Origin: Lactarius indigo
Taxonomy: Eukaryota > Basidiomycota > Agaricomycetes > Russulales > Russulaceae
Assembly (NCBI GenBank): GCA_025766275.1
Contig: JAFKAC010000076.1
Span: forward strand, 124,001 to 188,000
Length of the DNA: 64,000 bases
Direction of reading: 5' to 3'
Positions 6,042-46,055 of the stretch are shown one piece after another (the stretch's first letter is position 1; every line of letters begins with the position of its first letter). Below the pieces are notes generated by a model. That model worked only from the letters and a program-made list of their open reading frames with translations. It searched no databases and was not told the DNA's origin. A program made the position numbers and the translations under genes.

Positions 6042-6046
6042 GGGCG

Positions 6047-8188: not shown

Positions 8189-8193
8189 GGGCT

Positions 8194-14440: not shown

Positions 14441-14442
14441 GG

Positions 14443-22375: not shown

Positions 22376-24483
22376 AGGTTGGCATTGCAAAAATCCTGGT
22401 TAAGGGCATAGTAATGTCTCCTTTCATCCTCAGTCATGCCTTGGACAAGTGCATGACCCTGTTGGACTTTGTCTTCAGTTGTGGCAGCAGACACTGATGA
22501 GGTGCTCACTTCTGGGGTGTATGGGGGTACAGTGTCCACTTCTTGAGTGTCTGTGGCTCTGGCCTTGATTTTGTTGGTGGTATTCTGTTGTTGGCAGTTC
22601 CTGGCCATGTGTCCTTGTTGTCTGCATTTGAAGCAGTGCCCTTCCTTCATGAGGGTTTTCTTTTCTTCTTCAATGAGCTTCTTGAAAGGGGTGGAGGTGG
22701 TAGCATCTACATCCATTGCATTGGGGTCTCTTTTGGGTTGTCCTTGGTGGACATTCTGGGTTTTTTTTGTTTTTTTTTTGAATCGATTTATATTCCGGAG
22801 CAGTACTTAATACAAAGCCGGTCCTATGGTACTGTGCGCTACTACTCTGTATGGAAACTCAGTATATACTGGACTCCCTCACCGCTTGATCGGATATTCC
22901 TGGGCATGCTTATCTGGCCTCTCAACCTGCTACCCTAATTGTTATTGACGGCAAAGGGTGGAACCTTCTGTGCCAGGGCCCATATAGAACCCTCGGTCTA
23001 CTCTGTATACCCTGACCATACGTATAATTGGGATGTAAAGGGACTTGAGACAAGGGTAAGCAGACAGCGTGTACACATAGATTACAAGAGGAGAAGAGTC
23101 TGTGGGTCCGGGGACCCGGTGCGTGTGTAAGGTTGTAGGGGCGAGGGATTTAAACCCCACCCACTAGGGGCATCTCCAGAGGAACCCAGTCAGAGTTGGT
23201 GTGTTAGGTAAGGTAGGGACGTGTCGGTCCCAAGTGCGGTCTCCCAGTCCATCTGTGTGTATGTCATCCATAACCTCATCCCTACCTCCCATGCCGTCAT
23301 CACCTTCCAACCCTGAGGCACCGGTGCCATCATCGCCCTCCCAGTCTCCTGGAACACCCTTCCTGTTTTTGTGTTTGGGACACTGCAGAAGTAATGGAGA
23401 CCTTGCCTTATTTGTCATGGTACTCCTTGGGGGCCCAATCCCAAGTTTCCACAAGGTTGGTGTTGCAACCATCTGCAAGGAACCCAGCTCCTGGCCCCCA
23501 GGATGGGTTTGCGACCTCCTGAGACGGGCTGAGCGGGGATTGTGGGAGTTTGAATTGGACAAAGGCTGTGAGTGGCAAAGATTGAATTGGGGGTGGTATG
23601 GGATTGTTGGAAGCGGAATCGGAGATAGAGCAGGGGTGTGGTGTCAGGGGGTGGTGTTGGGGATGCCGGTGGCTAACCGGCAGAGCCCAGAATGGTAATG
23701 AGTGCATTGGTAGTTGGTGACATGGGGTGTCAGTGGTGCATGTGACAGAGCCCAGGTAGGAAGTGAGCGTGTGGCCAAGCAGGCCAGAGGTGTTTGGTGG
23801 TGTTGGGGGCAGGGTGGGAAAGGAAGGTGGGTGCCGAGAAGCAGTGTTGAAATGAGTGCCCTCATCTGTCTCCTGCCAGGATCGAACCCAGGGTCTGACA
23901 CATGACATTCCTCAGAACGAGGTAGGGGGGTGGCAAAAGCCCAGTGCACCATCCACCCCCCAAGGACATTCTGGGTTGGTCCTGGGTTTCTGGTTCCTGG
24001 TCTGGCTTTTAGCAGCTTCCAGCATTGATGTTCTGCTCTGGCTGCAGTTTGCCACTCATCCATGATGTTGGGTATAGTGGCTTCTCATGAGGCAAGCACA
24101 ATAGAGACCCACCCTGCATCCTTCAACTGATGTGCTTTTGGTAGGCTCTTTCTTTGTTCAGAGTGTCAGTTCAGTCTCTGTCAAAGGTGCCAGTGAAACT
24201 GTTCCACAGATCTATGCTATTTTTGGTGAGGGCTTAGGTAGTGTCTGCTAGTGCTGATTCCATATCATCTTCAGTTTGGTTGACCCATAATTGTACTCTG
24301 GGTCCTTTAAACAGTGTAAGGGCGAACAGTACTTGTCCATAGGGTTCTTTAATGAGTTCATTTTCACTATTCAACTTGATGTATCACAGTAGCTCTCTTT
24401 TGAACTGACCACTCTCTGTTTTGCCTCCAGTGAATGGAGTGGGAAGTACTCCCTTGAGCCCTCCTGTGTTTGTTGTTGGTGTT
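22376..24483 (-). pseudogene. Element A2 gag, 3' part, split by a retroposon
   Basis: The minus-strand pieces at 22376-22748 and 23978-24483 give the second half of A gag. They show the capsid-like region (MDEWQTAARAEHQCWKLLKARPG), a zinc knuckle (CFKCRQQGHMARNC, CX2CX4HX4C) and the C-terminal YYALNQDFCNANL. As in A1, a TGA follows KRELL (about 24380-24385). The upstream 5' half of this same gag is at 33011-33727, moved by the inversion. Confidence 0.88.
22763..23963 (-). mobile_element. Poly(A)-tailed retroposon, ~1.2 kb, tRNA-like (SINE-type) head
   Basis: Inserted in A2 gag and flanked by a 14-base TSD, ggacattctgggtt (22749-22762 and 23964-23977). The plus strand starts with a T-run, i.e. 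a poly-A tail on the minus strand, so its 5' end is at 23963. Within 85 bases of that 5' end, on the minus strand, lie an A-box-like TGGTGCACTGG (23951-23941) and a B-box GGTTCGATCC (23888-23879), spaced as in tRNA-derived promoters. The long TSD and poly-A tail indicate LINE-type mobilisation. It is CpG-rich compared with its host, so it may be younger. Overlapping open frames of 130-165 codons on both strands have no domain, and I see no RT or endonuclease. At 1.2 kb it is much longer than typical SINEs. Confidence 0.7.
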
Positions 24484-24488
24484 CTTCC

Positions 24489-25110
24489 TGATGAAAAGCA
24501 CACATAGAGATGATACTCACAGTGACAAAGTAGACTGTGGTGAGATATCAAGGGTGGCTGGAAGCAGAGGTGTACAGGGTGAGTTGCAGGTGAAGCAAAG
24601 AGGTCTGGCACACAACAGTGAGGAACTGATGATACATTGAAGAGGAGGAGACATACCTGGCACACAACAGTGAGGAACTGATGTGGACCAGGAGCATACA
24701 TGGTACTCTACTTATACTCCTACAGGTAGTGACAATAGTACAACGCTAGTAACACTGGTCACAGAATACAAGAAGGTATTGTTCTACAAACGGACAAAAG
24801 AGTGGATGCTTTGAGAACAAAGGTATGGAGAACAAGAAGAGTCCAGAGCTAAATGATATCATAGTGACATCATAATAAAGATAAAACTAAGTATGGAACA
24901 AAGGAAAGTACAAAGGCGATATACAACGCAGAGTCCGGATGTATGATGTCATAGAAGTACAGTGATGTCATGTATGATGCAATGATAAGTCCAGATTGTA
25001 CAGATCAAATAATATCTAATCTACAGGTCCTGTATATCTAATCTAAAGCAGTCCATGCTGCAAGTCTGGTCCATACGAGCCGCTAAGTGCGCAAGGGTCA
25101 CTTATCAACA
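24489..25110 (-). repeat. LTR D copy g, hybrid flanks (inversion breakpoint)
   Basis: 622-bp D LTR in minus orientation with the GT...AG insertion. The left flank is cttcc (24484-24488; ggaag in LTR sense) within A2 gag. The right flank is attgg (25111-25115; ccaat in LTR sense) within B gag. The flanks do not match each other but match those of copy k at 33733-34354, with which it is about 98-99% identical by eye. Confidence 0.93.
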
Positions 25111-25115
25111 ATTGG

Positions 25116-26085
25116 AGCCTGCCAACTGCACCTTGGTTCAGTCTGCCGATGTATCCATTGCCCAGGGGTTTGCTAGATTTTGTGGCATGGTCCATCCCAC
25201 ATTTCCAGTTTTCTTCATCTTACTGTCTTTGTAGCCATTAAGGCACACCTTGAGATGAATATAATTCTTCTGCCTTCTGAGCACTGCCAGTTTCCATTCA
25301 TCAAACGTCTCTGGTTCATCTAGTTTGAATGTCTTCTCATATAATTGTTTGGGTAGCCCTCTAGTAAAGATGTCAATTGTTTGGGGGTCGTTAAGCCTAT
25401 ATCCTGCCTTCTGGGTGGCTTCTTTGAATTTGTTGACATATTTATCAATGTCTCCATCGATCATGTTGAGCCCTTTTCTTAGAAGCACTTGAGCTTGTTC
25501 TCACTTGAGGGTATTAACGAACCTTTGGTTAAACCCTGCCACTACTGCATCCCACAAGGCTCACATGTGTTGATCAATTCCCTGTTGGATCTGTCTGTTG
25601 AGCCATTTGAGATAGAAGAGCACTCATTCACTGACAGTAGTGCCCTTAATGTAGGATAGGAAGAGGAGGCAATGTCAGTAGTTGTTGTGCATGACAGGTG
25701 TGTTGAGGTTTATTCCCCAGTATACATGCCACTGGGTCAAGAATGCATCTACTTTAGTTCTGTCCCCATCAAAGATAGTGGGAGGCTCACCAGTTAATTT
25801 CTCATGACCATGTGGTCCACCTCTGCCTCCACCTCCAGGAGCTCCTCCTCCCAGTGGTCCTCTGGGTGGTCCATTTCTTCCTGGTAAGTCAGGCAGGAAG
25901 TCTCTGCCTCCTCCCCTTCTGGATGGGAAATCGTCCCCTGGAGGTCTGCCGTGCCCAGGCAGTGGTTCCAGGCCCAACATTCATCCTCCCCCAGATGGAG
26001 GATTGGGTTGATCTGGCCCTATTGCTTGAAATATGGCTGCATCATCAGCAGTCATCCTGACCCCAGTTTCTGGGTTGATTGGCAT
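25116..26085 (-). pseudogene. Element B gag, N-terminal two thirds
   Basis: On the minus strand an ATG at 26055-26053 starts MTADDAAIFQAIGPDQ. An earlier in-frame ATG at 26085 lies directly at the LTR edge. The same frame continues through TGA near 25983 into a Gly/Pro/Arg-rich stretch (25975-25815), then EPPTIFDGDRTKVDAFLTQW (a typical Ty3 capsid entry motif). After several stops comes the capsid C-terminal region (LLRKGLNMIDGDIDKYVNKFKEATQKAG; TRGLPKQLYEKTF; TFDEWKLAVLRRQ). Translation ends at the D LTR. The remaining zinc-knuckle part is at 34360-34750. Particle assembly and RNA binding are the family role. Confidence 0.85.
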
Positions 26086-27097
26086 CATCACAATGTCAGC
26101 TCAACTTGAGCTCTGGTTTAGGTGACAATAAGACTTAGCTAAAAGATCACACTTGACAGCGTATGGCACAAAGGCTGATGTAGTCACTTGCAAGTGCTAC
26201 GCTTGAAGGCATGCCTACTGATACTTGCAGTTTGAGGCAGTATATGGACTTGAACAGAATAGAGGAGAAGGGATTCACAAGTGACAATTGAAGAAGACCA
26301 AGATGGTGATGAATAGCACACATAAAGACCATACTCACAGTGGACAAGAGGACTGTGGTGAAATATGGAAGGTGGCTGGAAGCAGAGGTGTAACAGGGGA
26401 TCTTGCAAGTAAAGCAGGGAGTCTGGCACACAGAGCAGTGAGAACTGATGTGGACCAGGGTGTACAAGCAGTCTACTTATACTGTACAGAGGTGTGACAC
26501 TAGTACAAGGGAAGTAACTACAAGTCACAGAGTACAAGGGACGCATTGTTCTACAACAGGACAAAGGAGTGTGCATAAGGAGAACAAGGCATATAGAACA
26601 AGAGAAAGTCTAGACAAGTATGATATCAAAGTGACATCACAATAAAGATAACACTAGAAAGAGAACAAAGGATGAAGTACAATGAAGAGTCTGGAGTAGT
26701 CCATATAATGTCATTGTACATAGTGATGTCATAGAAGTGCTAGATTGTACAGATCAAATCTAATCTACATAAGTGCAGTATATCTAATCTATAGCAGTCC
26801 ATATCTGCAAGTCCATTTAGAGCTGCTAAGTGTGCACAGGCTACTTATCAACAGATGGTGTATCTTGGTCTTCACAAGCTATCCTAAATACAAGTAAAGG
26901 CAGGCTTTGAAGTGCCACCTAGAAGCGTCCTATGAATCATGTAAATGCAGCAAATCCTAGTACAGCTACTACTAGGATCGAGTCATAACTATCCTACACA
27001 TGATGTATCCACTATGAGTCCATGACAGATTACACCCTACTACAAGTGCCACACTGTAAGTAGTAAGTGTCCACTCTGCAAGCTTGAACATGTAACA
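26080..27097 (-). repeat. LTR B, 5' LTR of element B, split by LTR D copy h
   Basis: Without the nested D it is about 470 bp and matches 40246-40723. Its outer end (TGTTACATG on the minus strand at 27097) is followed by caaag (27098-27102), one half of the TSD for B in A3. The inner end near 26080 has diverged, so that boundary is approximate. Confidence 0.88.
26307..26853 (-). repeat. LTR D copy h (solo) inside LTR B
   Basis: 547 bp, TSD gatgg (26302-26306 and 26854-26858). It lies exactly at the loop of the conserved LTR B hairpin, splitting its two arms. No GT...AG insertion. Confidence 0.93.
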
Positions 27098-27102
27098 CAA
27101 AG

Positions 27103-27356
27103 AAACCCCCATACATGGAAAGAACTTTATGGAACCACCCCCAGATCTAGTAGATGGAGAACAGAAGTGAGAAGTCAAGAAAATACTAGAAACAAGATGC
27201 CACAGGAACCAGTTACAGTTCCTGATCAAGTGGAAGGGATACTCCAATGCACACAACAGCTGGGAACCGGAAAAGAACCTTAATGCCCCAGAACTCATCC
27301 TGGAACACTTTGAAAGCATCCCCAGAAGTGAGGGAGCAAAGCAGTGGTTAAAATGA
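27103..27356 (+). pseudogene. Element A3 pol, chromodomain end
   Basis: Translation matches A1 from the KETPIHGKNF region through NQLQFLIKWKGYSNAHNSWEPEKN to KQWLK. A Trp codon has become TGA (about 27166-27168) just before the chromodomain. The frame meets TGA at 27354-27356, the site read as CAA in copy A2. The 5' remainder of this pol is on the minus strand at 40729-43657. The B insertion and the later inversion separated them. Confidence 0.88.
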
Positions 27357-28826
27357 AAGGAAGTAACAATACAAACAGTAACCACCTTCCCCACTAGCCT
27401 CTCCACCATGCCCTCTCACTCCTCCTCTGTAGAACACCTTGTTGCTTGTGCCATGGAAAGAGGCTCCTTTGATGAAATACCCTCTGTCACCCCTTCCTCT
27501 GGATACTCTCCCTCCCCAGTACAGCCCCCTTCCTTACCCCTGGTCCTCCATGAACCACAACCTATCAACCCCACTGTGCCCAGCATCATAGAAACAGAAG
27601 GAGGAGGAATAACTCTTCATGTTCCCCCTCCTGGACACACAGCTCCCCCCACTCCTGAGATACACCAATCTATCACCTCTCCTCCCAACCCCAGAGTAAC
27701 CATAGCTCACCTCAGTGAAATAATCAATGACCCAATCATGGATGTGCTTCCTATCAACTATGAAAGGATGCACATCACTGCTGAGGAGGATGACAACCCT
27801 GGCTACCCCTTCTTCTTGAATGACCCTTGGAGCAGTCACTATGTCCACTTCCTTATCCCTGATGATGCTGACCCAACCTTGTACATCTGAAAGGATGCTA
27901 AATGGATCAAGATCAGCAAAAACAAAGAAGAGGTCATTGGCACCATGGGCAAGAATCTCCCTCACTATGGCTTCTCCCTCTTCCTCCTTCCCAAAGACAA
28001 TGACCCCCACAACCCAGCTCCCCCCATCACTCCAGCTCAGATGCAAAACTTCGATGAAGCTTCCCCTACAACCAGCCAAGTCAATGAAGTCTTAGAAGAC
28101 CTGGGAGATGACCACCTCACAGCAGAAGTCTTCAGGACTCATTGGCTCCTGTGAAACCAGAAAGCCCTCCAAAAGGAGATCGAAGGCCTGTACAAGACAA
28201 TGGAGCCCCTCAAAAGGCACCTTCTCAATATGGACATGCAACTGACCAGTGCCAGAAGGAGGCTACAAGAACACAAGGCTTACATGAGGATTGCAGATAA
28301 GTGGCTCACCTTACACCCCCCTCCTGCTGAAGAAGAAACTCACCCCTTTGGAGTCCACCCCATCCCTGCTCCTGCCCCACCTTGCTATCACACTATGCCT
28401 GAGCCCCACAACAAACCAGAAGGACCTGGCCCCTCTGCAGAAAGGAAGAGAAGATGCAAGAGCAGATCCAACAGGAAGGAGGCTGGCACCATCCAACTTT
28501 GTTACAGGTGCCAGTCCGAAGACCACCTATCCTTCACTTGTCCTCAAAAACAGAAGTACTGCTGGAGGTGTTCTAGCACTGACCACTTCCCCTATCAGTG
28601 CCTTTGGCCAGCCCCAGAAGAACACACTCAGTGGTGTGGCAAGTGTTTCACAGACAACAGCCATGAAGAGATCAAGTGCCCCAAATACAAAAACTGTCAC
28701 AAGTGTGGGGCCCATGGTCCCTTCAACTTCCTTTGCCAACACCGCTGCCCCCTCCCTTGTGAAAGCACCCCCTCTAATGATGTGGACAATGATGTCTACG
28801 ACCTGATGGACTTTGAAGCACTCTAG
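27357..28826 (+). pseudogene. Element A3 Pol C-terminal extension with coiled-coil-like segment and zinc-knuckle array
   Basis: The frame of the chromodomain continues without any other change after TGA 27354-27356. A possible internal ATG is at 27408. Two further in-frame TGA codons (27888-27890 and 28152-28154) interrupt it. At the first, copy A1 has CGA (63970 region), which proves a CpG transition there. Residue order counted from 27408: a Ser/Pro-rich N-terminal 130; a conserved block with NDPIMDVLPINYERMHIT and GYPFFLNDPWSSHYVHFLIPDD (about 105-158); a helical, charged stretch (KALQKEIEGLYKTMEPLKRH; LTSARRRLQEHKAYMR) at about 250-298; a basic stretch ERKRRCKSRSNRK; then four Cys/His motifs; then an acidic tail. 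It stops 26 bases before the LTR. I know no described function. RNA/DNA binding is inferred from the knuckles. No signal peptide or membrane segment, so it is not envelope-like. Confidence 0.8.
28500..28748 (+). other. Four zinc-knuckle-like motifs in the A3 extension
   Basis: Motif 1 (28500-28541) CYRCQSEDHLSFTC and motif 2 (28560-28601) CWRCSSTDHFPYQC are exact CX2CX4HX4C. Motif 3 (28635-28679) CGKCFTDNSHEEIKC is CX2CX5HX4C. Motif 4 (28695-28748) begins CHKCGAHG and ends CQHRC, an irregular arrangement. Gag knuckles usually number one or two; here three to four lie at the far C-terminus of the pol frame, separate from the gag knuckle. Confidence 0.82.
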
Positions 28827-28852
28827 GGAGAGTTGACTTATAGAGGGGCTCA

Positions 28853-29428
28853 TGTTATGATCCAATGTGGACCTCAGTTACAGGATGTCCTCAACATGTT
28901 CTTTCCCCTTTTTGTTTGTTACTTTGTTACCAAAGGAGCTACTATCATTAGTGGCACTGTTTACCTTGATTTGAGTATCCCCTTGACCCATTTAGTTTCT
29001 TTGCTAGTGTGGGCCTGTGTTCATGTTATTTGGAACCTCACCCTATATAAACTTGTACCATAGACCATAGGAAGCCAGACTTGGCTTCGTTTGCAATCTA
29101 GCAACCTTGCCTTCATACTTTGGTGTGACTTTGCCTTCTCCCCTCTTCTTGTGCATCCCCTACCTCAGTCCTTGACCAGGACACTTCGAAGTCTTTGCAG
29201 TTGAACTATATCAACACGTCACACCTGTTAGACTCTGTGCACTAGCAAGATCAAGTGTAGAGAAGTGTTAGACACTTTGGGTGAGGAGCCCTACATTACA
29301 GAGTAGTGCTGCACATTGTGCCACACCTTTACCACTTGTATTTCATAGCAACAAGACAATAGATGTCTTCACTTGATACTTGTGTGATCCAGAACCCTTA
29401 GAACCCACACCTCTGCTAGGGTGTAACA
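28853..29428 (+). repeat. LTR A copy 3 (3' LTR of A3)
   Basis: TGTTATGATC...GGTGTAACA, 576 bp, preceded by a purine-rich tract (atagaggggctca). It contains TATA-like cctatataaac (29042-29050). The same family is at 31873-33010 and 57570-58148. The TSD cannot be tested because A3's 5' end is missing. Confidence 0.92.
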
Positions 29429-29439
29429 CCTGTGAATAT

Positions 29440-29862
29440 GCTGTGCATCCCATTATGTTTTCAGGTACTTGCAAGAGAGAGACAGGCCTACACCATGCGC
29501 ATGTCATACAGTCGATTCTCAATGCAGTAGGAAACACAAATGTGCAAAAGGACCATGTTTATCACACCATCTGCATCGCCTCCAATGGTGAAGCAAAGCA
29601 TGGAGATGCGCTTGTCATACTGACAATGAATTCCCAGTTGTCTGCAAGTTCACCAATTTATGGGCAACTATTCTCACTGAAGCTCATGAACTATCTTGTT
29701 GGCCCAGACAATGTCACAGCTGACAAGGACTTCAAACAAGTATTCAAGTGTCAATGGAACCTCCTCATGTGCCAGAAAGGTATCCTAGTACAAGGCTTTT
29801 GTGTCACTCCTGCAATACTTTGGACACATCTCAAGTCACATAGCATTCCCCCTCATTGACTC
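29440..29862 (+). pseudogene. Conserved-looking coding remnant, family not identified
   Basis: A frame entering from the LTR edge is open for about 140 codons to TGA at 29857-29859. The composition is balanced (GDALVILTMNSQLSASSP, MNYLVGPDNVTADKDFK, CQWNLLMCQKGILVQGFC, ILWTHLKSH). It resembles a block I recall from repeated agaricomycete hypothetical proteins, but I cannot assign it to a family. Positions such as QWNL and CQKG look like Arg-to-Trp and Arg-to-Cys changes (CGG to TGG, CGC to TGC), as expected from CpG decay. Element A3 interrupts its 5' side and D copy i its 3' side. Confidence 0.45.
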
Positions 29863-29889
29863 CAGTCTCTCCTCAATCCCACCAACAAG

Positions 29890-30477
29890 TGTTGATAAGT
29901 GACCCTTGCACACTTAGCAGCTTGTACAGACTGGACTTGCAGCATGGACTGCTTTAGATTAGATATACAGGACATGTAGATTAGATATTGATCTGTACAA
30001 TCTTGAACACCTTGTATTTACTTATCCATGACATCACTGTACTATGACATCATGTGGACTCCTCTGGACCTGACATTGTACTACACCTTTGTTCTCTGTT
30101 TAGTTCTATCTTTATTGTGATGTCATTATGATATTATCTCAGTCTGGACTTTCTTTGCTCTTACACTCCTTGTTCTCCATCTGTACATTCCTTGTACTAT
30201 GTGACCCTATGTTACATCCCTTGTAGTAGTGTCACTCCTGTAAACAGTATAAGTGGTGTACCATGTATGCTCCTGGTCCACATCAGTTCTCACTGCCTGT
30301 GTGCTGGGTATGTCTTCTGCTCTCTAATGTATAATATCAGTTCTCACTGCTTGTGTGCCAGACACCTCTCTGCTTCATATCAAGACTTCCCCTCTGCTGC
30401 TTACCAGTTGTACCTTATATCTCACCACAGACACTTTTGCCCTCTGTGAGTATAGGTTCTGTCTGTGCTGTTCATCA
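29890..30477 (+). repeat. LTR D copy i, no matching TSD
   Basis: 588-bp full-length D LTR with TG...CA ends and the GT...AG insertion. The 5' flank is acaag (29885-29889) and the 3' flank ggtta (30478-30482), which do not match. The coding remnant on its left does not resume on its right. A recombination partner outside the window, or a deletion, is the likely reason. Confidence 0.88.
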
Positions 30478-30722
30478 GGTTATGGGCCCTGGTGCCCTAG
30501 CCACTCCACTTGGCTGGTCACTGTCTTCCTAGGAGGACACACCAGGCTAAGGTCTGTCTGGGGCCTTACTAGCCTTGCCCAAGGCAGAGAGCAGTGGGGT
30601 GCCACTTGTCTCCACTAAGGAACCTCCTGTGTGTGTACTGCCCAGTAGTCCTACTTTCACCCCTACTGTTTTCCTAGCCCCTGCACTATGCACAAGGAGA
30701 CTTGGTCTGGTAGCCCCTTAAC

Positions 30723-30925
30723 TGTTAGAATGCAACCTATAGAGGGCCCTTGAGTCACAGAGGACACAAGGGGACTGCAGAGGAGGATATAAGACTAAAG
30801 GCATATTTTCCGTCCTCTGCAGGATATATCAACCTGACTAAGCATATCTAAATAAGGTAACTCGACTTAGGGCAATGTACAGTCACAGAATAGGTGAAAC
30901 AACGACGCTCTAGCCACAAATAACA
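30723..30925 (-). repeat. LTR H copy 1 (203 bp), no matching TSD
   Basis: It is the reverse complement of the short element at 39364-39619 without its 52-base insertion. Ends TGTTAGAA and AATAACA. Flanks ttaac and caggt do not match. I gave the strand from copy 2, whose TATA-like cttatatcc reads in the TGTTATTT direction. Confidence 0.7.
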
Positions 30926-31872
30926 CAGGTGCCTTGTTTTTGATTCATGTTGAATGTTGAACCTGGGATGTTTCAAGTTTTCCTCTTTCCATGTGGCTTC
31001 TGAGGGCAAATCTGGGGATTCTCATGAGTGTTCATGCTCTGTTCATGGCCCTCTCTGTATGAGTTACTGACTTTCCTACTATCTCAGTTCCACCACCACT
31101 CAGCTTTACACAGTGTTTCACTGTTGTCACCTGGCCAGTCCCATCATCTTGCTACCACCTTTAACCCCTTGCCTCCTCATTCTGTACTTCCATTCCCATT
31201 TGTCATACTTTCCCTCATGCTGCTGATGCCACCTGGCATCCCCTGGTCACCATCAAGAGGATCAAGTGCCACCAACTTGGCTGCCAACCTACCAGCCCAT
31301 TAGCCCAGCCCTCACCCTTTCTGAGCCCCCTTTCCAAGCTGCTTGCCAATTGGGCCTTTCACTCTTGCTTGGGTTGCCCCTCTACACTCCACCATTGTAT
31401 TCACCACTGTCTACTTGTCCCCTTGCTTCCATCTGCCCACCCTTGAATTTTGCCACATGTGTGTCATGCAACTCTTGCCACAAAGCTGCATGACACCATT
31501 TAAGTGAGTAGCATCCATTTGTAGCTTTGTCCTTACTATTTCTAATTGTCTCTTAGCATTAGAACAGGTCTAGGTGTGCCAGTGCTAGTGTCAGACTACT
31601 TGCTCTACTAGCTATCTCATCTCAGTTCTTCATTTATGATTGTCCAAGATTCACCCTCTGCTGTCCTTTTATGTCACTGCCCATTTTCTAAGTAGGATTC
31701 TGTATGCATGTATTTAACCCCCTGTTTCCTAGCTTTCCCAATCCCAGTGCATACACCCCACTTCCTCCTTTAGCAACTTGTGTGAAATATACTGACCACT
31801 TCTGGTATCAACTCTGACATAGTACTTGTACCACACAAGCATTGTCCAACTGAACATGTCACTGAAAATGGT
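30926..31872. other. No supported gene
   Basis: Pyrimidine-rich unique DNA with short frames only. No terminal repeats. Confidence 0.5.
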
Positions 31873-33010
31873 TGTTATGATCTGACACTTCAGACCTCAG
31901 TTACAGTATGTCTCCAGTTGTCTTTCCCCTTCCATACTATACTTTGTTACCAAACAAGCTACTGCTACTAGTGATGAACAGCACAAGTAGAGAGCATACT
32001 CACAGTGGCAAAGATGACTGTGGTGAGATATGCAGAAGGTGCTTGAAGCAGCAACAGGGAGTTGTCAGGCAGAGTTGAAGCAAGTGAAGTCTGGGACACA
32101 ACAGAGTGAAAACTGATGTGGACCAGGGCATACAGAGTACTCTATTTATACTGTACAGAGGGGTGACACTACTATAAGGGATGTAATGTAGAGTCACACA
32201 ATATAAGGGAGCATTGTTCTACATACAGGACAAAGGAGTGTGCTAATGGAGAACAAGGTGAGCAGTACAAGGAAAGTCCAGACTGAGATGATATCATAGT
32301 GACATCATAATAAAGATAGAAACAAAAGGAGAACAAAGGATGAAGTACAATAAAGAGTCTGGAGTGATCTACATGATGTCATTGTACATGATGTCATAGA
32401 TAAGTAAAGAAGTCCTAGATTGTACAGATCAGATCATAATCTACAGAGGTCTGTATCTAATCTATAGCAGTTCATATCTGCAGGTCCTTTGAGCCACTAA
32501 GTGTGCGCAGGTCACTTATCAACAACTAGTGGCACTGTTTCCCTTCATCCAAATGTCTCCTTAACCCATTTGGTCTCTTTGATATTGTATGGATTTGTGT
32601 TCATGTTGTTTGGAACCTTGTCCTATATAAACCTGTACCATAAACTGTAGAAAGCCAGACTTGGCTTCATTTGCAATCTAGCAACCTTGCCTTTGTACCT
32701 TTGGTGTGACTTCATCTTATCACCTCTTCTTATGCATCCCCTAACTCTGTCCCTAACCTGGACACCTCAAAGTCTTTGCAGTTGAACTATATCAATGTGT
32801 CACACCTGTTAGACTCTGTGCACTTGCAAGATAGAGTGTAGAGAAGTGTTATACACTTTGGGCAAGGAGCCCTACATTACAGAGTAGTGCTGCACTTTAT
32901 GCCACACCCCTATCACTTGTATTTCATAGCAATAAGACAATAAATGTCTTTGCTTGATACCTGTGTGATTCTGAAGCTGTTAGAACCCATGCCCCTGCTA
33001 GGGCATAACA
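31873..33010 (+). repeat. LTR A copy 2 (5' LTR of A2), split by LTR D copy j
   Basis: Starts TGTTATGATC and ends GGGCATAACA; about 580 bp without the nested D. The A leader (taagccaag...) and gag follow directly. The orientation is opposite to the rest of A2 because of the inversion. Confidence 0.92.
31972..32524 (-). repeat. LTR D copy j (solo) inside LTR A
   Basis: 553 bp, TSD actag (31967-31971 and 32525-32529). No GT...AG insertion. Confidence 0.93.
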
Positions 33011-33727
33011 TAAGCCAAGTCTACAACCTCTGACACACCTAAGACACTACTGCTGCATAGCAGAGTGAGGTGACAATCCAAGAGGATGCTTCAGCCAATG
33101 ACCAGACAACTCCATAGACCCCAGAACAATGGCATAGCCAGGTAACGGATCCTTGCTGACACAAGAGGCTACTTTAGCCATCCCCTTACACAAACCAGCA
33201 CTCAGGACAGACCACAATCATAGCTAGCATCAGTGTCACCTTCAAACCAGATGAGAATTGGACTCCAGTCACAACCAGAACACAAGATGACCTCCCACAC
33301 CATGTTAAGAGCAGTCACTTAGGAAGAGGAGCTTGCTGGGCCACAACAACAAAAGACCACCCTCTTACAACTCAGACCAGTAGAATTCATCAACAATGAC
33401 TGGTACATCCTCAGATATTTCCAGAACTCCTACCACACTAGGACTATAAATGTCACACCACACAGATTTGCTGAAGGACTACCTCCAGACACCACCTAGA
33501 CATCATAGTACCCCCCCAAGCCTCATCACACACACACTAGCCCAACTATCCTCATTTGGATAGAGCCATCCTCAGCAGAAGAAGTGTTTCCCACCCCAAT
33601 TCCACCAATCAGAATACCTTCCTCAGTTGAACCACCCCAGATTCCCATCACACCACAACCAACACTCACCATGTCATCTGTAAATGCCACAGGCACTGGC
33701 TCAGGCACTAGTTTAGGCACTGGTATA
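33011..33727 (+). pseudogene. Element A2 gag, 5' part
   Basis: Leader and N-terminal half of A gag. The expected start codon at about 33223-33225 is ATA (A1 has GTG), both single transitions from ATG. ASISVTFKPDENW and FINNDWYILRYFQN are readable. Relative to A1 about 165 bases encoding the acidic Ser/Glu-rich region are missing near 33478. The frame breaks off at TSD ggaag (33728-33732) where D copy k begins; the continuation is at 24483 on the other strand. Confidence 0.87.
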
Positions 33728-33732
33728 GGAAG

Positions 33733-34354
33733 TGTTGATAAGTGACCCTTGCGCACTTAGCAGCTTGTACGGACCGGACTTGCAGCATGGACTGCTTTAG
33801 ATTAGATATACAGGACCTGTAGATTAGATATTATTTGATCTGTACAATCTGGACTTATCATTGCGTCATACATGACATCACTGTACTTCTATGACATCAT
33901 ACATCCGGACTCTGCGTTGTATATCGCCTTTGTACTTTCCTTTGTTCCATACTTAGTTTTATCTTTATTATGATGTCACTATGATATCATTTAGCTCTGG
34001 ACTCTTCTTGTTCTCCATACCTTTGTTCTCAAAGCATCCACTCTTTTGTCCGTTTGTAGAACAATACCTTCTTGTATTCTGTGACCAGTGTTACTAGCGT
34101 TGTACTATTGTCACTACCTGTAGGAGTATAAGTAGAGTACCATGTATGCTCCTGGTCCACATCAGTTCCTCACTGTTGTGTGCCAGGTATGTCTCCTCCT
34201 CTTCAATGTATCATCAGTTCCTCACTGTTGTGTGCCAGACCTCTTTGCTTCACCTGCAACTCACCCTGTACACCTCTGCTTCCAGCCACCCTTGATATCT
34301 CACCACAGTCTACTTTGTCACTGTGAGTATCATCTCTATGTGTGCTGTTCATCA
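33733..34354 (+). repeat. LTR D copy k, hybrid flanks (inversion breakpoint)
   Basis: 622 bp, the same length as copy g and nearly identical to it, in opposite orientation. The 5' flank is ggaag (A2 gag) and the 3' flank ccaat (34355-34359, B gag). It carries the GT...AG insertion. Confidence 0.93.
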
Positions 34355-34359
34355 CCAAT

Positions 34360-34750
34360 GAAATCAATTACAGCAAGCCACCATATACCAGCTTAACCCC
34401 ATTCCCACCAAGGGGAGGGCCTGGCGTGAGGGGGAGAGGGCAAGGAGGATCTCGCCACAACCTAAGGACAGTCCTATGCTATAACTGTAATGTGCCAGGT
34501 CACCTCTCATGAAACTGTCCACACCCCAGGCAGCCTTGACAGTGGCAGCCTACGGCTGGGCCATCGAACACACATGCTGCTGAGACTGACTATTACACCC
34601 AAGAGCAACCACTGGCCCAAATTCAAACCACATCAACTAGCAAAACAGCCAAGGAACAAGCCAAGTAGTGGCTGTCAGGAGTGGCAAACACTCCCAATGA
34701 AGTAAAGGACTTAATACTACAAGATCAATGGGGAAAAGAGGGTTTTTGGA
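34360..34750 (+). pseudogene. Element B gag, C-terminal part with zinc knuckle
   Basis: It continues the B gag that stops at 25116. An RG-rich stretch (GRGQGGSRHN) is followed by a zinc knuckle at 34477-34518, CYNCNVPGHLS-stop-NC. The stop is TGA at 34510-34512, where an Arg (CGA) is expected, giving CX2CX4HX4C. Further stops follow before the pol frame. Confidence 0.85.
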
Positions 34751-37062
34751 GTGCCTGAACCCATCAGCCAGGGTGAGAGGGCTTTACATTGTCATTTTGT
34801 AATCATGACTCACTTTCGATCTGTTCAAATTCCAGTATTGATTTGCACAAATTACCACATGGCTGACATCAGAGCATTGGTGGACTCAGGAGCCACTGAC
34901 AATTTCATACACCCAAAGTTTGCACAAAAATTGGGCATCAGGATCCAACCCCTAGAAAGGGTGTGCAAGATATGGAATATAGAGAATACTGAAAATAAAG
35001 CTGGGTTAATCACTCATTTCTCCAATCTTGACATCTACACCAAAGGATTCCACAGAACAATGAGGTTTTTGATCACCGATCTAGGGAGTGAAGATATCGT
35101 CCTTGGATACCCTTGGCTGGCAACATACGAACCAACCATTAACTGGAGAGATGCAGTGATACATGAAGAAGTGATGCTGGTCATCATTAGTACGAAGGAA
35201 AGTCAAAGCATTGATGTCATTATAGCTGCAGTGCTCACCACGCAAGAAAAGGAGGATATCTTCCACAAATTAGGGGAGGAAGAAACACACTTGAGAGCCA
35301 CCACGTCAACCAAGTTGACCATTCAAGCACAACAGCATGACAAGGCAGTCAACCTCCCTCCTGTTTACCATGCATTCAAGCAACTCTTCAATGAGGAAGT
35401 GTCACAATGTTTTCCCCTGGCTCGGCTGTGGGACCACACCATCGACTTCAAGCCAGGAACACCATCTGCAATTGACTGCAAAATTTACCCCCTTATGCAA
35501 GAGGAGGAGAGTAAACTTAAAGAATTCCTCAATGAAAAATTATCCCAGGGCTATCTATGCCCCTCTATATCCCTGTATGCCTCATCTTTCTTTTTTGTTA
35601 AAAAGAAGGATGGAAAGCTACAACCAGTACAGGACTACCGCGTCATCAATTCCCATACCATTCAAAATCAGTATCCTCTTCCCTTAATCCAAGACCTCAT
35701 CTACAATCTCAGTAATGCCCATATCTATACCAAGCTTGACATCCGGTGGGGGTACAATAACATTTGCATCCATGACAGCGATCAAGAAAAGGTGGCATTC
35801 AAGACCAAATTTGGCCTTTTTGAACTGACCGTTATGTTCTTCAGGCTAACTAACTCCCCTGCCACCTTCCAGACAATGATGAATCATATCTATTGTGATA
35901 CAATCGCAAAACACGAACGGTTGGGGACTGTTATTCGCATCTATATGGATGACATTGGCATTGTGATGCACAAGGGGTACAATCTTGATGCACATGTTGT
36001 GGCAGTCACAGATGTCCTCCACATTGCTAAAGAACACAACCTGTACTTCAAGTTGGAAAAATGCCTCTTCCACTAACCTTGGATGAATTACCTGGGGGTA
36101 ATCCTTGAAAAGGGGTAACATGAATGGACTTGATAAAAATTCGTGGCATCAAGGATTGGCCTATGCCAACAAAAGTCAGGGACATACAATCTTTCCTTGG
36201 CTTCTGTAATTTTACCACTTATTCATCCAAGGTTTTGCAACCCACAGATGACCATTAAATCGGCTTACAAGAAAGGACGTGGAATGGAAATGGATGGATG
36301 AAGAAGAGAACACCTTCCAAAGACTCAAATGTCTTGTAATGGCAGAACCAGTACTTGCACACCCCTGCCTACAGGACCAATTTGAACTAGAGGTGGATGC
36401 ATCAGGGTATGTGGTGGGTGCAGTACTCCTACAGAAGAAAGATGATGGGCAAAAACACCCTATAGGATACTACTCAGCAACACTGAATGAGGCCAAGCAC
36501 AACTATGACATATACAACTTGGAGTTGCTGGCTATAGTCAAGGCCCTGTGACATTGGAGACCTCTCCTCACTGGATCCCCTCACAAAATCAAAATCTTCT
36601 CTGACCATCTCAACCTCCAGTACTGGAAAACTCTGCAAAAGATTAGCAGGCAAGTGGCAAGAGAGGTGCTGGAGCTGATGGAATACAACTTCAAGATCCA
36701 CCATATCCAGGGAAAGAACAATGGAAGAGCAGATGCACTATTGAGACAACTGGATTATGATCAGGGCGAGGATGATAACCAAGGTGTGATAGTACTCCCT
36801 CCTGAAGTCTTTGTACAAGCCACTAATGCTGTGTGCACCCTTGAAATACATCCAATGTTGCAACAGCCGAGGCATCAACAAGACCCAGTGATCATCAAAC
36901 AATGGGTAGATGTGCACCAGCTTAAACAGATCGAAGGAGAATGGTACAAAGATGGACAACTCATTGTCACCAGACCTGCATCTACTTACTGAGTTATCAT
37001 TCACGACCACCATGACATCCCCATCCATGGACATCCAGGTACTAGTTGCACCCAACAAATTG
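34751..37062 (+). pseudogene. Element B pol: protease, RT, RNase H, integrase N-terminus
   Basis: The frame at 34751-36076 is open for 441 codons. It holds the aspartic protease motif ALVDSGATDNFIH (about residue 40), linker DIVLGYPWL, and RT with FFFVKKKDGKLQPVQDYR, LDIRWGYNNI and the IYMDDIGIV catalytic box (about residue 400). After TAA 36074-36076, RNase H follows (36380-36760: LEVDASGYVVGAVLLQ, YDIYNLELLAIVKAL, KNNGRADALLR), then the integrase zinc-binding start (HDHHDIPIHGHPG, 36998 on). A TGA replaces a codon after IVKAL (36549-36551). Only three or four lesions occur in this stretch, which is better preserved than most. LTR C2 interrupts it. Confidence 0.9.
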
Positions 37063-37067
37063 TGGAG

Positions 37068-37578
37068 TGTTACAGTATGGACTTTACAACATGTTGTGAA
37101 TGACTCATGGCCAGTTATGACTATGGCCTGATAGTAGTATTAGTCATGGACTCTTACATTGTATCAGTCAGCATCGTAGTTTACATGTGATTGTGACTCG
37201 TGCATGACTCATTCCTAGGATAGCTGTACTAGGGTTTGAGCTAGTTACACTATTGGTTCTTTATTGTTCTAGCAGCGCTTTAAAGCCCATGCATATCTGT
37301 ATAAGTAGCTGTCTTGGAAGACCAAGAGTCCCCATCTTGGTCTTCTTCAATCCACCATCTGATTCACCTCTTGTCTGCCTTAGTCTCTGGACTAAGTGTG
37401 CTTCTGCTTTGACTTAACCAAGGAGTTGAGCTTGTTGTCATCTTTGCTGTAGCATGTGCCTGTTGTGCCCCTGTTCAGCTTGCATTGGGTTGACATGTGG
37501 TCCCCATTTGCCTAGTATTCACTAAGTCATCTATGCTGTTACAAATCCAAGTTGGACTAACACCTGTGGAGTGTAACA
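37068..37578 (+). repeat. LTR C copy 2 (solo) in B integrase
   Basis: 511 bp, TGTTACAG...GTGTAACA, with perfect TSD tggag (37063-37067 and 37579-37583). Removing it and one TSD rejoins the integrase frame. TATAAGTA at about 37300 is followed by a hairpin (37317-37345). Confidence 0.94.
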
Positions 37579-38760
37579 TGGAGCACCAGTATGTTGCCAG
37601 GTGTGCGGAATACCAGCAAAATAAAGTAAACACAAGACCAACTCACACACCATTACATCCCATTACTCCATTAACCGACGCCCCTCCATTTCATACCATA
37701 GCCTTGGACTTTAATACCAAACTCCTGATTTCTCAGGAATATGACAGCATCCTGACAGTGACAGACCATAACTGCAGCAAAGCATCAGTATTTATTCCAT
37801 GCAACAAAGACATTACAGTGAAAGAGACCACCCTCCTGTACATAAATCATATATTCAGACAATTTGGACTACTGCGTAAAATCATCAGTGACTGCAACCC
37901 CTGCTTCATGTCCAAATTCACAAAGGAGACATGTAGGATTTTGGGCATCCACCAGAACATCTCCACCACCTATCACCCACGCACCAATGGTCAATCAGAA
38001 CGAACAAATCAGTGGCTAGAGCAATACCTTTGATTCTGGGCCAACATGCACCAAGATAACTGGGCTCCTTATCTACCAATCACAGAATTTGCCCACAACA
38101 ATTGGCCCCATGAACATACAAAGCAATCCCCATTCATGCTCCTCATGGGGTATAACCCAATTACTGATTGGATGGATAAGCAATCCCCTATTCCCAACAT
38201 AATCACATGACTGACACAGTTGAAAGAAGCACAACAAATGGTGCAAGACCTGATCAAAAAGGCCCAGGCCACATGGATCAAGCACAAAGACACCCCACGA
38301 TATCAGGTGGGAGACCAAGTATGGCTTGAAGGAAGACACCTTCAAACCAATCAACCATCAGCAAAATTGACAGTACAATGCCACAGCCCCTTTAAGGTTG
38401 TTCAGGTGATGTCCCCTTACAACTATCGCCTTGAACTTCCCATGCAGTGGAGCATACATCCAGTGTTTCATATTGATCTTCTCACACCATACAAAAGTAC
38501 CAACTTCCATGGGGAAAACTTCCCATGACCGCCTCCCACTTTAGTAGAAGGAGAAGAAGAATACGAGGTTGAGGCTGTTCTTGACTTTTGGCATCACGGA
38601 CGCTGGAAGAAACTTCAATACCTCATCAAATGGAAGGGGTATCCAGACTCAGAGAATCAGTGGGTCGATAAGGATGATGTCTTTGCTCCAGAGGCAATAG
38701 CAGCATATCAAGCAGGCCAGACAACCACTTGAAGACTTAAAAACCTGCTCAACGATCCTG
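37579..38760 (+). pseudogene. Element B integrase core, C-terminal domain and chromodomain
   Basis: It starts with CAEYQQNK; the second Cys of the HHCC zinc site has become Tyr (TGC to TAC). The catalytic core shows LTVTDHNCSKASVFIPC, KIISDCNPCF and HPRTNGQSERTNQWLEQYL, then TGA at 38031-38033 where C has CGC (Arg) and A1 has CGA. The C-terminal domain and chromodomain (LQYLIKWKGYPDSENQW, about 38610-38665) are intact apart from TGA at 38526-38528. A TGA follows QAGQTTT near 38729, after which the same frame continues into the extension. Confidence 0.88.
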
Positions 38761-40202
38761 AGGATAGCCAGCCCCTCTATATACAATCCTCTTGTACTTC
38801 CATGCCCACTTCCCCTCTACAACATGTCACCACGGCGATCCTCCTCAACCAAGTTGCACAAGACACCACCACCCTCATCATGGACAACGAAGAAACCATG
38901 ATTCCACAGGTCCAGCTCACTCCATACACACCTAGCAACTTGCATGCTGGGTATATCACCGCTCAAGAATGGGCTAATGTCCTACAGAGATTCCCTGACC
39001 TGACACAGCAGCCAGATGTTGAGCATGCCATTGCTCACATCTTCAGAGATGACAATGGCAATTGCAAACCCATCACTGTCATCCCCCCAGGTGACAACCT
39101 CATTGGCACAAGGGGAATATTCCCTGCTGAACATCCCCTCGAAGACCCTAGTGGAGTATGAAGCAGTGGAGGCTTGGTGGAGAGTGGCGAAGGAGTGGGC
39201 TGACAAACAGTTGTGGTTAGTGCAGAAGAGATTGAGTGAGTTGCAGCAGCGCAGGCAACACTGCCAGATGACAAAGCTCACTATGAAGACGGAGATTACT
39301 ACCTGGTCAGACACCCCCTCCTTCGAACGCACAGCCACCCTACTGATCCCCAAATCACCCCCTTGTTATTTGTGGTTAAAGCGTCGCTGTTTCCACCTAT
39401 TCTGTGACTGTACATTGCCCTAAGTCAAGTTACCTTATTTAGATATGCTTAGTCAGGTTGATATATCCTGCAGAGGACGGAAAATATCCCTTTAGTCTTA
39501 TATCCTCCTCTGCAGGTGAGTAACTAGCTTTACCTTGATCAATATAGTCTTATATCCTCCTCTGCAGTCCCCTTGTGTCCTCTGTCACTCAAGGGCCCTC
39601 TATAGGTCGCATTCTAACACCCCTGGCTCATCCATACCAATGGAACCCCCATGCCTCAAGGACATGTGTAACTGCCCAGCATTGCACCACATACCCCTAT
39701 CTCCTGAGAAGATGACCCTGCACAGGTCCTTGCGCCTGAAGGGTTCCAGGCAAATTGACAGCCCCATGACATTCACTTCCCAATCACCAGCCCTGATGGA
39801 GTAGAGATGAACACTAGCCATGTTCAGATTGTCACAGGTGCAAACCCATTTGTGCTCAGTGTAATCCTGGGCTCCCCCCATCTCAATGGCAAACCCCTCT
39901 GCACCCATCTGATGCTGCCGGCTGCTCAACATGCCCACATTGCCCACAAGGATCTTGTAATCCTCACAGCTGACAAGATCACCAACCACACACTTGACCA
40001 CATTGGAGATGAGTCTCTGGTAGCAGAGGTGATGTGCTACCAAGCAGCTGTGTATAAAGAAGAGCAGCTGCAGGCACATATTCCCCAACTCAAGGTGATG
40101 GCCCTTGGAGTGAAGGATGACAAGATGGATTGCATCTATCACTTAGAGAGGGCCAACGTCTTTGAACATATTGAGGACAAACAATGCTTGTGGCTGGCTT
40201 AA
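38761..40202 (+). pseudogene. Element B Pol C-terminal extension / 3' coding region
   Basis: The frame of the chromodomain runs on to 39161 (LLNQVAQDTTTLIMDNEE; YITAQEWANVLQRFPDL), with about 120 open codons. A second frame (39130-39260) is Trp/Lys/Gln-rich and helical (AWWRVAKEWADKQLWLVQKRLSELQQ). The third part (39807-40202) is open for 131 codons and ends HLERANVFEHIEDKQ. It matches the C element extension in order and in local motifs. H copy 2 sits at 39364-39619. No zinc knuckles occur, unlike family A. It ends 25 bases before the purine tract ctgaaaaggggg. Confidence 0.62.
39364..39619 (+). repeat. LTR H copy 2 (256 bp) with 52-base GT...AG insertion
   Basis: TGTTATTT...TTCTAACA with TSD cccct (39359-39363 and 39620-39624). 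Compared with copy 1 it has 52 extra bases starting GTGAGT and ending CTCTGCAG. The last 23 (tagtcttatatcctcctctgcag, given here only as its ends tagtc...tgcag) repeat the sequence just before the insertion. Confidence 0.88.
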
Positions 40203-40245
40203 GACTTTCAGTGAGCCTGGGAGTCTCACACTGAAAAGGGGGTAG

Positions 40246-40723
40246 TGTTATGTGTTTGAGCTTGCAGAGTGGACACTTACTACTTACAGTGTGGCACTTG
40301 TAGTAGGGTGTAATCTGTCATGGACTTGTAGTGGATACATCACATGTAGGATAGTTATGACTTGATCCTAGTAGTAGTTGTACTTGTACTAGGATTTGCT
40401 GCATTTACACAATTCATAGGATGCTTCTAGGTGGTGCTTCAAAGCCTGCCTTTACTTGTATTTAGGATAGCTTGTGAAGACCAAGATACACCATCTTGGT
40501 CTTCTTCAATTGTCACTTGTGAATCCCTTCTCCTCTATTCTGTTCAAGTCCATCCATATACCGCCTTGAACTGCAAGTATCAGTAGGCATGCCTTCAAGC
40601 ATAGCACTTGCAAGTGACTACATCAGCCTTTGTGCCATATGCTGTCAAGTGTGATCTATTAGCTAAGTCTTATTGTCACCTAAATCAGAGCTCAAGTTGA
40701 GCTGACATCGTGACAATGTTACA
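40246..40723 (+). repeat. LTR B, 3' LTR of element B
   Basis: 478 bp, TGTTATGTG...ATGTTACA, preceded by the purine tract at about 40231-40242. It is followed by ctttg (40724-40728), the reverse complement of caaag at 27098-27102. It contains a perfect hairpin: 40476-40487 and 40493-40504, 12-base arms, 5-base loop. Confidence 0.92.
40476..40504 (+). promoter_or_regulatory. Conserved LTR hairpin (LTR B), perfect 12-bp stem
   Basis: GAAGACCAAGAT, loop acacc, ATCTTGGTCTTC. The same in LTR J at 14609-14637 (minus element). In the 5' LTR B the loop is split by D copy h. Confidence 0.85.
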
Positions 40724-40728
40724 CTTTG

Positions 40729-42559
40729 TATGGCATCAAGAGGGACACATGGAATACTGGGTGGATCCACCACTGATGGGGAAGTTTCAGGGCATATGTT
40801 GTGGTGGAGATCTTCTTTGTGACCCTGAAGGGTCCATATCTTTTTGGGGCTAACTTGAAACTGGGGTGTGTTGTTTTCAAGTTTCTGGTGTCCAGCCACA
40901 TACTATCTCCTTCTGTATGTTGTTCAAAATGAGAGGATCCTTTGTAGAGTGACTGCGCATGAGTAATCACTGCTTGGGTGATCCTTCTGGCCTCTTGGAT
41001 CTGCTCTAGTCTTTCTTGTGTTCCTGGTACTGTAGCCATTCTCTCTGGTTGGTGTACCCTTGGGATGTATCCAAGGATTAGTTCATAGGGTGCTTTTTTA
41101 GTGGTTGCACTTGGCCAGGAATTGTGGGTATATTGTGCCAGTGGCAGTAGTTCTGTCCAGTTGTCTTGTTGGTGATTTATGAACATTCAGAGGTATTGCT
41201 CTAACCACTGGTTTGTTTGTTCTGATTGTCCATCTGTTTGTGGGTGGTATGCTGTGCTGATGTTTTGTTCTATGTCAAGTACTCTGCACAGTTCTCTGAT
41301 GAACTTTGCTGTGAATCTAGGGTCTCTGTTGGAGATGACCCTTCTTGGTAGTCTGTAGTGTGGCAGGACTGTCTTGGCATAGAGTTTTGCCACTCCTTCT
41401 GCATCTATTGTTTTGCTGCATGGGATAAAGAAGGCTGCCTTGGAACAGTCATGATCTGTGATGGTGAGAATTGTGTCATTGCCTTCTGATTGGGGTAACT
41501 TTGTGATGAAGTCTAGGGTGATGGTTTCAAAAGGGAGTGCTTCTGGGTTAGTCTTGATGGGGAATATCAGGGGTTTTGGGTTCCCAGGGAAGTTCTTGTT
41601 TGATTGGCATGTGGCACAGCCCTTTACATATGCATATATGTCACCTTTCATGTTTGGCCACCAGAAGTCTTGTGACACCAGCCACAAGGTCTTTGTTATT
41701 CCAGGGTGTCCCACTGTTTTTGTATCATGAAACAGGGAAATTACCCCCCTCTTTAGTGGTGTGTTGTCCACAACCACCAGTTTGTCACCCTTCCACCAGT
41801 GTTTGCCTTGTTTTATTAGTTGGAAGGGGGGTGCCCACTCATCTAGAGTGTCCTGGTGATCCAGTTGGTGTGCCATGACTTGGTCATCTATCCTTATGGA
41901 GAGAGTGGAGTTTGGAAAGATGGTTGGGGTCAGGACCACTACATTGTTGTTATCTTCTGCTCCAGTGTCATGGTCAGGGTGTCTTGATAGGGCATCTGCA
42001 TGATTCTGGGGTCCCAGTTTGTGGTGGAGTTTGATGTGGTAGTCCACAAGTCTGGGGATGTATTGTGTACCCTTCTGTTGATTTGTCAAGGGTGGTGATA
42101 GTATTCCAGGTTTTTGTGGTCCGTGAACACTGTAATTTTGTGGGGGGACCCTAGTAGAAGGCATCTCCAGTGTTCTAGTCCTCTGATTACCACTTGAAGT
42201 TCTCTATCATGGATGTCATGGTTGTGCTCTGCTTCTGTGAACAATTTGGAAAAGTACCCTACAGCTTGTGGCTTGTTTCAGCTATCCCTTTGTGTTAGGA
42301 TTGCCCCTGTGGCAAAAGCAGAGGCATCCACTTCTAGCTCAAAGGGTTTATCCATATCTGGTTGACATAAGATGGGGTCGTTGCACACAAGCATGATGAG
42401 TGTTTCTAGGGATTCTGCTGCTTCTTTTTTCCACCTGAAGGGTCCTTCTGACATTTTTATTGTGTCTGTGATGGGTCTTGCTAAGTGAGCAAAGTTGGGG
42501 ATGAAGGGTCATTGATAGCTTAGTGTCCCCAACACGCTTCTTGCTTGTTTGACTGACTT
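40729..42559 (-). pseudogene. Element A3 pol: RNase H and integrase
   Basis: On the minus strand from 42559, RT thumb/RNase H gives way to integrase. Visible are HHKLGPQNHADALSRHPDHD, the zinc-binding HDTKTVGHPGITKT with CATCQSNK, DDE blocks (TITDHDCSKAAFFIPC; RRVISNRDPRFTAKF; AYHPQTDGQSEQTNQWLEQYL), and LILGYIPRVHQPE. TGA at 41189-41187 replaces the CGA of A1. The frame at 42164-40719 is otherwise nearly continuous. It stops at the B insertion site; the chromodomain and extension are at 27103-28826. Confidence 0.9.
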
Positions 42560-43310
42560 TGTCATGAACTCCCCTGCTACCTTTTCTTTCTTGTCCTTAT
42601 CCTATCTGATCCATCACCATTTCCCTTCTTGGCAGTTACTGTCTTAAACCTATGCTTCCCCACTATCTGATTGTTCCAGCACCTTCTGTGCTATTCTTGT
42701 CCACCCTTCTTCTGCCTTGCTGGCATGACACCATCTTGCACAATGCTAGCATCATCTTGCCAGCACATTACTCTATTTATAGCAACCAGTAGCACTATGT
42801 GCTCAGGCGCAATCCTGTACCATATAAAGACCCCCTGTAGTGCGCCTTAACCCCTTAGCTTTGGCTTAATCAACTATCTGCATTGTATCTCCCATTGACT
42901 CCTTGAGTGCCTCAGTCCCTTCAGCACTCAAGCCCTTGACCCAGAACCCCTGACCCTTGACCCTTATCCCCTTTGGGTCATTCCCATCTCAGCCTCTGTG
43001 CAGGCTTCTCCTTGACTTTCTCTTACCCTCCTTCTGTCTTACTGGTCAGCCCAGTGACATGTGACCTTTGGACTTAGGCCTCTGAGCTTGTCCATTGCCA
43101 CAGGTTCAGTCACCTCAGTGTAGGGGCTGTTACAGGCCAGCCTTTCCCACCTCAGCATAGGGGGATTACCACAGACTCAGCTACCTTAGCATAGGGGCTG
43201 TTACAGAAGACCTTAGGAGTCATTGCATACAATGCCGATCCAACTTGACTGTTAACTGCCATGTGACAGGAAGCCATTACAGAAGACCATGGCCCCGCAG
43301 AGGTGTGACA
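42560..43310 (+). repeat. LTR E (solo, 751 bp) in A3 RT
   Basis: TGTCATGA...GGTGTGACA with inverted TGTCA/TGACA ends and perfect TSD gactt (42555-42559 and 43311-43315). CATATAAAG at about 42821 suggests plus-strand transcription. Only copy in the window. Confidence 0.93.
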
Positions 43311-43657: not shown

Positions 43658-43659
43658 CA

Positions 43660-44145: not shown

Positions 44146-44159
44146 ATTTTGCATGTTTT

Positions 44160-45835: not shown

Positions 45836-46055
45836 CAATTGACTTGGTGCATGTTATGCAGACTCCTGACATCACATTGTTCTTAATACATACAAAAGTC
45901 TCCCTGGTGTTCTCTTGAGAAACACAATACCATTGTGCTTCAACACTTTATCTCTCCCATGGTTCAAACATTTATAGCCAAGAAGCCTGTTATTGTAGAC
46001 ATTTTTCAACCCCTTTATGTATGAAGCACAAGTATGAGACATCTATCTAACTACT

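Follow-up and report, generated by a model that had tools for sequence, protein, structure and literature searches.

A probable 8.6 kb inversion between two opposed solo LTRs of Lactarius indigo, indicated by exchanged target-site duplications and interrupted elements

Results

Two opposed solo LTRs with exchanged TSDs

How did two solo long terminal repeats (LTRs) of the D family, in opposite orientation and some 8.6 kb apart, each come to be bordered by halves of two different target-site duplications (TSDs)? The locus lies in the window, by which we mean the whole 64,000-nucleotide stretch analyzed (contig C266:124001-188000), and the genome searched was the 90.3 Mb assembly of 291 contigs. 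Counts from genome searches are rows among the matches listed rather than all copies, because only the best 40 or so candidates were scored per search.

Re-reading of both LTRs bore out the coordinates, strands and flanking 5-mers that an initial annotation had given for the two copies, g and k (Table 1). These homologous sequences lie on opposite strands at the two breakpoints, and their alignment over 622 bp yielded six differences and no gap, in agreement with the equal length and few differing sites noticed earlier. In LTR sense the order is ccaat-g-ggaag at one breakpoint and ggaag-k-ccaat at the other: the TSDs are exchanged between the copies. We refer to the insertion with TSD ggaag as X and to that with TSD ccaat as Y.

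D copies have TG...CA ends and are bordered by a 5 bp TSD made on insertion, as is characteristic of solo LTRs. Within the window, six of the eight other complete D copies have a perfect 5 bp TSD. A tandem composite of two D LTRs (8194-8854 and 8878-9321, the latter being the upstream, truncated member) has outer ends that share agccc and raises the number to seven; matching TSDs are thus found as the initial annotation held, in fewer than the nine copies that it counted. Another copy, at 29890-30477, is followed by ggttatgg, a sequence found after the 5′ LTRs of the D family. Genome-wide, we collected the 30 closest D copies with their flanks and set aside nine as LTRs of longer elements, because they border ggttatgg or cggggaga, which we take to be the primer-binding-site and polypurine-tract sides. 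Perfect 5 bp TSDs flank 18 of the 21 solo-type copies that were left, a further copy (L007) matches at 4/5 positions, and g and k are the only ones with wholly mismatched TSDs. Relatives of full length exist too: their two LTRs lie on the same strand at a spacing of ~5.75 kb, next to ggttatgg and cggggaga.

Table 1. Features of the inverted locus, its uninverted counterpart on contig C112 and full-length D relatives. Positions are those of the window unless a contig is named.
Feature	Position	Strand	Remarks
D solo LTR copy g	24489-25110	-	left breakpoint, 622 bp
3′ flank of g, ggaag (LTR sense)	24484-24488	-	half of insertion X TSD
5′ flank of g, ccaat (LTR sense)	25111-25115	-	half of insertion Y TSD
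D solo LTR copy k	33733-34354	+	right breakpoint, 622 bp
5′ flank of k, ggaag	33728-33732	+	other half of insertion X TSD
3′ flank of k, ccaat	34355-34359	+	other half of insertion Y TSD
Inverted segment, 8,622 bp	25111-33732	.	nested retrotransposon pieces plus ~1 kb (30926-31971) common to C112
Element A (Ty3/Gypsy-like), 5′ part, inside inversion	32525-33732	+	aligned with window 57665-59033 on +
Element A, gag continuation, outside inversion	24109-24488	-	extends leftwards; aligned with window 59420-59039 on -
Element B, leader and 5′ gag part, inside inversion	25111-26081	-	left 5′ LTR limit approximate; includes the LTR's last part
Element B, 5′ LTR	26081-27097	-	limits approximate; interrupted by a D solo LTR
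D solo LTR inside B 5′ LTR	26307-26853		TSD ccatc
Element B, 5′ TSD ctttg (B sense), inside inversion	27098-27102	-	
Element B, 3′ part, outside inversion	34360-40245	+	rest of gag onward
Element B, protease and reverse transcriptase ORF	34751-36076	+	within 34360-40245
Foreign solo LTR in B 3′ part	39364-39619		
Element B, 3′ LTR	40246-40723	+	orientation opposite to its own 5′ LTR
Element B, 3′ TSD ctttg, outside inversion	40724-40728	+	
Element F (same family as A), one part, inside inversion	27098-29428	+	
Element F, other part, outside inversion	40724-43655	-	contiguous with the first only if the segment is turned back
C112 match to window 22587-24488	C112:3165502-3167407	+	2.37% substitutions
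C112 match to window 34354-30926	C112:3167408-3170837	reversed	99%
C112 match to window 30926-33732			0.61% substitutions
C112 match to window 43656-49699			1.04% substitutions
C112 match to window 10312-16737			99%
C112 match to window 46000-52900			98%
D LTR pair	C1:249548/255300		same strand within pair
D LTR pair	C263:140521/146274		same strand within pair
D LTR pair	C135:274554/280303		same strand within pair

Three interrupted elements are continuous only when the segment is turned back

The two breaks in gag sequences that the initial annotation described are present. The gag of element A runs up to the ggaag copy at 33728-33732 and onward from 24483 on the opposite strand; that of element B runs down to 25111 (ccaat = 25111-25115, minus strand) and onward from 34360. 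We rejoined A by placing the reverse of 24483-24084 after 33333-33732 and searched the whole genome with the result. Among the matches listed, the join was crossed in 37 of 79 rows, at 82-84%, the others being partial pieces or halves from C266 and C112. When an A-family ORF was searched against proteins, the six hits all had uninformative names. The join as assembled at g, with the LTR omitted, was crossed by none of the 40 rows listed for it.

Element B gave the same picture. When reversed 25510-25111 was joined to 34360-34759 and searched against the whole genome, the join was crossed at 72-77% in 38 of the 40 rows among the matches listed; the other two were the window's own halves. The two LTRs of B point opposite ways, because its 5′ LTR lies on the minus strand and its 3′ LTR on the plus strand, and they differ at 25 of 463 aligned sites (5.4%). 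The right breakpoint thus separates the LTRs of B and the halves of its TSD, evidence that is independent of the D LTRs.

Element B entered element F, which is cut at the ends of B. The reverse of 27098-27913 followed by 40724-42559 aligns in one piece with window 64000-61353 (89% over 2,653 columns); the F join as it stands matches that region only in two halves. The row sets for F comprised 39 of 45 rows for the inner part and 39 of 81 for the outer part, and 11 pairs of abutting F halves occurred among the matches listed, one of them on the window's own contig. In all 11 the halves lie on opposite strands, the turned-back orientation. Only an inversion of the window's segment would predict this. 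A, B and F are all continuous only with the segment turned back.

A near-identical contig holds the uninverted breakpoint at X

Contig C112, 3.62 Mb long and from the same assembly, is 97.6-99.4% identical to C266 at the inversion region. Its copy of insertion X is a single solo LTR of 619 bp that has ggaag at either end and connects window 24488 to reversed 33732-30926. The model of the initial annotation predicts just this order for X prior to the exchange. Window 25111-30925 and 34355-43654, the intervals containing Y, B and F, have no counterpart on C112 at this locus; only the X breakpoint is seen uninverted, because C112 is without Y and B.

Several further differences set the two contigs apart. 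Where the window has its B/F/Y block, C112 carries 2.1 kb of different DNA (C112:3170838-3172956, L055). A solo LTR from a third family (TGTTATTTG...TAACA) lies in this DNA, interrupted by ~0.9 kb that ends in an A-rich run. Collinearity with C112 stops left of window 10312: window 9400-10311 corresponds to C112:3059380-3060291 at 98%, 94 kb from the neighboring matched block on C112, an offset that reads as a large insertion/deletion difference between the contigs, and window 1-8190 has no 98% match among the matches listed. In the comparison of window 22587-33732 with C112 3165502-3170837, divergence is ~2-4% per 250 bp at 22587-24086 and drops to ~0.5% beginning at 24087, a level that holds across X and the inner segment; the difference between the outer-left and inner parts has a Fisher p of ~3e-7. 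Apart from these differences, several further contigs carry repeats of the block at window 46000-51370, ~95% alike over 5.4 kb, and a Transposase_21 (tnp2) ORF lies inside it at 47654-48745 on the minus strand.

The simplest reading of these comparisons is that C266 and C112 would be two haplotypes in one assembly; alternatively, C112 would be a segmental duplication rather than the other haplotype. A further sign of two haplotypes is a pair of D copies with the same flank and TSD on two contigs. One (L008, contig C237) is the 3′ LTR of a full-length copy and the other (L013, contig C256) is a solo LTR; they have a flank and the TSD ctact in common, with 98.7% identity over 1,741 bp. They are seemingly a full-length and a solo form at one site. 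The divergences suggest, too, that the B block may be older than the split between C266 and C112 and was lost from C112, because the LTRs of B differ by 5.4%, more than the 0.6-2.4% between the contigs.

Sites that differ between g and k are largely CpG transitions

A crossover would be expected to leave g with the 5′ part of Y and the 3′ part of X, and k with the 5′ part of X and the 3′ part of Y. Of the six sites that differ between g and k, the C112 LTR shares the base of k at four (30, 38, 44 and 615) and that of g at two (34 and 133). With the C112 LTR taken as the X parent, a crossover between 44 and 133 fits four of the six sites, and no exchange, with k equal to X, also fits four.

Five of the six differences are CpG transitions, and four of the six cluster in a 15 bp stretch close to the 5′ end (positions 30-44), a bunching that looks non-random (weighted resampling, 0.004). 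The initial annotation suggested looking for a gene-conversion tract between g and k, and we considered this cluster as a tract boundary. We rejected it: the cluster is explained by hypermutable CpG sites, because LTR sites 30, 34, 38, 44 and 133 also differ between two other copies, L004 and L005, seemingly the LTR pair of a single element. A conversion signal is therefore absent or uninformative here. Judged from these copies, CpG transitions are hot spots in the D LTR family, a pattern that methylation of transposons would predict.

The C112 allele of X differs from g at 10 sites and from k at 8, plus a 3 bp gap, whereas g and k differ from each other at 6. For independent insertions it is a mild surprise that g and k resemble each other more than either resembles the C112 allele. 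They are 99% alike, while the next-closest copies have 43-44 differing sites. Their closeness could reflect homogenization or recent insertion from one source. Homogenization of X and Y is not needed, however, because near-identical independent insertions do occur in the D family: two solo LTRs on C1 (L029 and L030) have different TSDs and zero differences.

Discussion

We propose that element B inserted into element F with TSD ctttg, that D elements then entered B (insertion Y) and, in the opposite orientation, A (insertion X), and that the internal parts of both D insertions were lost, leaving solo LTRs. Ectopic, that is, non-allelic, homologous recombination on one chromosome, with a crossover between the opposed and near-identical LTRs, would then have turned the 8.6 kb between them on the C266 side. 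The outcome would be two LTRs with swapped TSDs and the splitting of A, B and F. We infer that the exchange was a crossover, where in the LTR it fell, and that both D insertions were solo by that time; X was probably already solo, because its copy on C112 is.

This history, in which the ~8.6 kb was inverted by exchange between the LTRs of two opposed D insertions, agrees with the proposal of the initial annotation and explains every junction tested; on the sequence evidence we give it a probability of roughly 0.87. The evidence is better than what the initial annotation had. The TSDs, the continuity of A, B and F and the state of C112 all sustain the inference, although "proved," the word first used, is a strong one. 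The main doubt left is assembly error. Inverted repeats are a weak point of assembly, and an 8.6 kb segment misoriented between 622 bp, 99% identical inverted repeats would show the same sequence signs on a chromosome that is itself uninverted, as the near-identical C112 copy is. The 64 kb window nevertheless contains 0 N, and contigs reach at least 4 Mb (C1) in this repeat-rich genome, features that suggest long reads, which would easily span 622 bp; we therefore consider an artifact unlikely.

The other rivals fare worse. Five-base flanks are short, and those of two unrelated D insertions might cross-match by chance with no inversion at all; the chance that both 5-mers do so is, however, ~1e-6 per copy pair and ~7e-5 over 66 pairs, and A, B, F and C112 each independently require the turn. 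With the continuity of A, B and F contradicting it, coincidence is so improbable as to be negligible. Segments inverted between inverted repeats can flip back through the same mechanism, so that the inverted order might be the older state and C112 might have been turned back later. Such a flip requires an extra step, and for a second turn X would need Y as its partner, which C112 now lacks; moreover, on C112 the TSDs of X match and X links two parts of A, like an original insertion. We regard this order of events as very improbable.

Taking exchange between opposed D LTRs as the preferred reading, we lean slightly toward live structural heterozygosity: two nuclear haplotypes of one organism, C266 inverted and C112 not, with the inversion arisen after they parted and perhaps retaining, on the C266 side, the ability to flip. 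If so, the states before and after an LTR-LTR inversion are both present in one assembly. As an example of an established type of rearrangement, with a well-known mechanism, the locus is very clear, and the C266 inversion leaves knowledge of that mechanism unchanged. As a rule, mismatched TSDs are the sole grounds on which LTR-mediated inversions are inferred; in this assembly the swapped TSDs can be read alongside three interrupted elements and an uninverted contig of near-identical sequence. The locus serves well as a worked example and lends itself to testing how frequently short (622 bp) inverted LTRs recombine, and solo LTRs with mismatched TSDs can be used to detect small inversions. An LTR inversion in a fungus was not found in our literature search, which had most subscription journals outside its scope.

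Among known systems, Ty elements mediate rearrangements in yeast, and LTRs of endogenous retroviruses in primates undergo rearrangements marked by mismatched TSDs. In the primate case, as here, LTR-LTR ectopic exchange is read from TSD mismatch, in another host and another element. Yeast Ty elements and solo LTRs likewise serve as substrates for homologous recombination, there in the context of circles and solo-LTR formation, not of inversion with swapped TSDs (PMC4751563). Exchanged 9 bp TSDs of BuT5 are, as described for inversion 2s of Drosophila mojavensis, likewise evidence for ectopic recombination; BuT5 is a DNA transposon and 2s is fixed, unlike the solo LTR case here (PMC3355041). Galileo offers a further parallel: ectopic recombination between opposed copies inverts the interval and swaps the outer TSD halves, and this textbook signature was used at inversion 2z3 of Drosophila buzzatii, where opposed transposon copies likewise lie at the breakpoints with exchanged TSDs (PMC2775673). 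Galileo belongs to the P superfamily of DNA transposons, and 2z3 is a large natural inversion, whereas here solo LTRs bound 8.6 kb; chimeric copies were shown there, whereas here crossover and no exchange each fit four of six sites; and its uninverted breakpoints were sequenced, whereas here one uninverted breakpoint is seen (PMC2775673).
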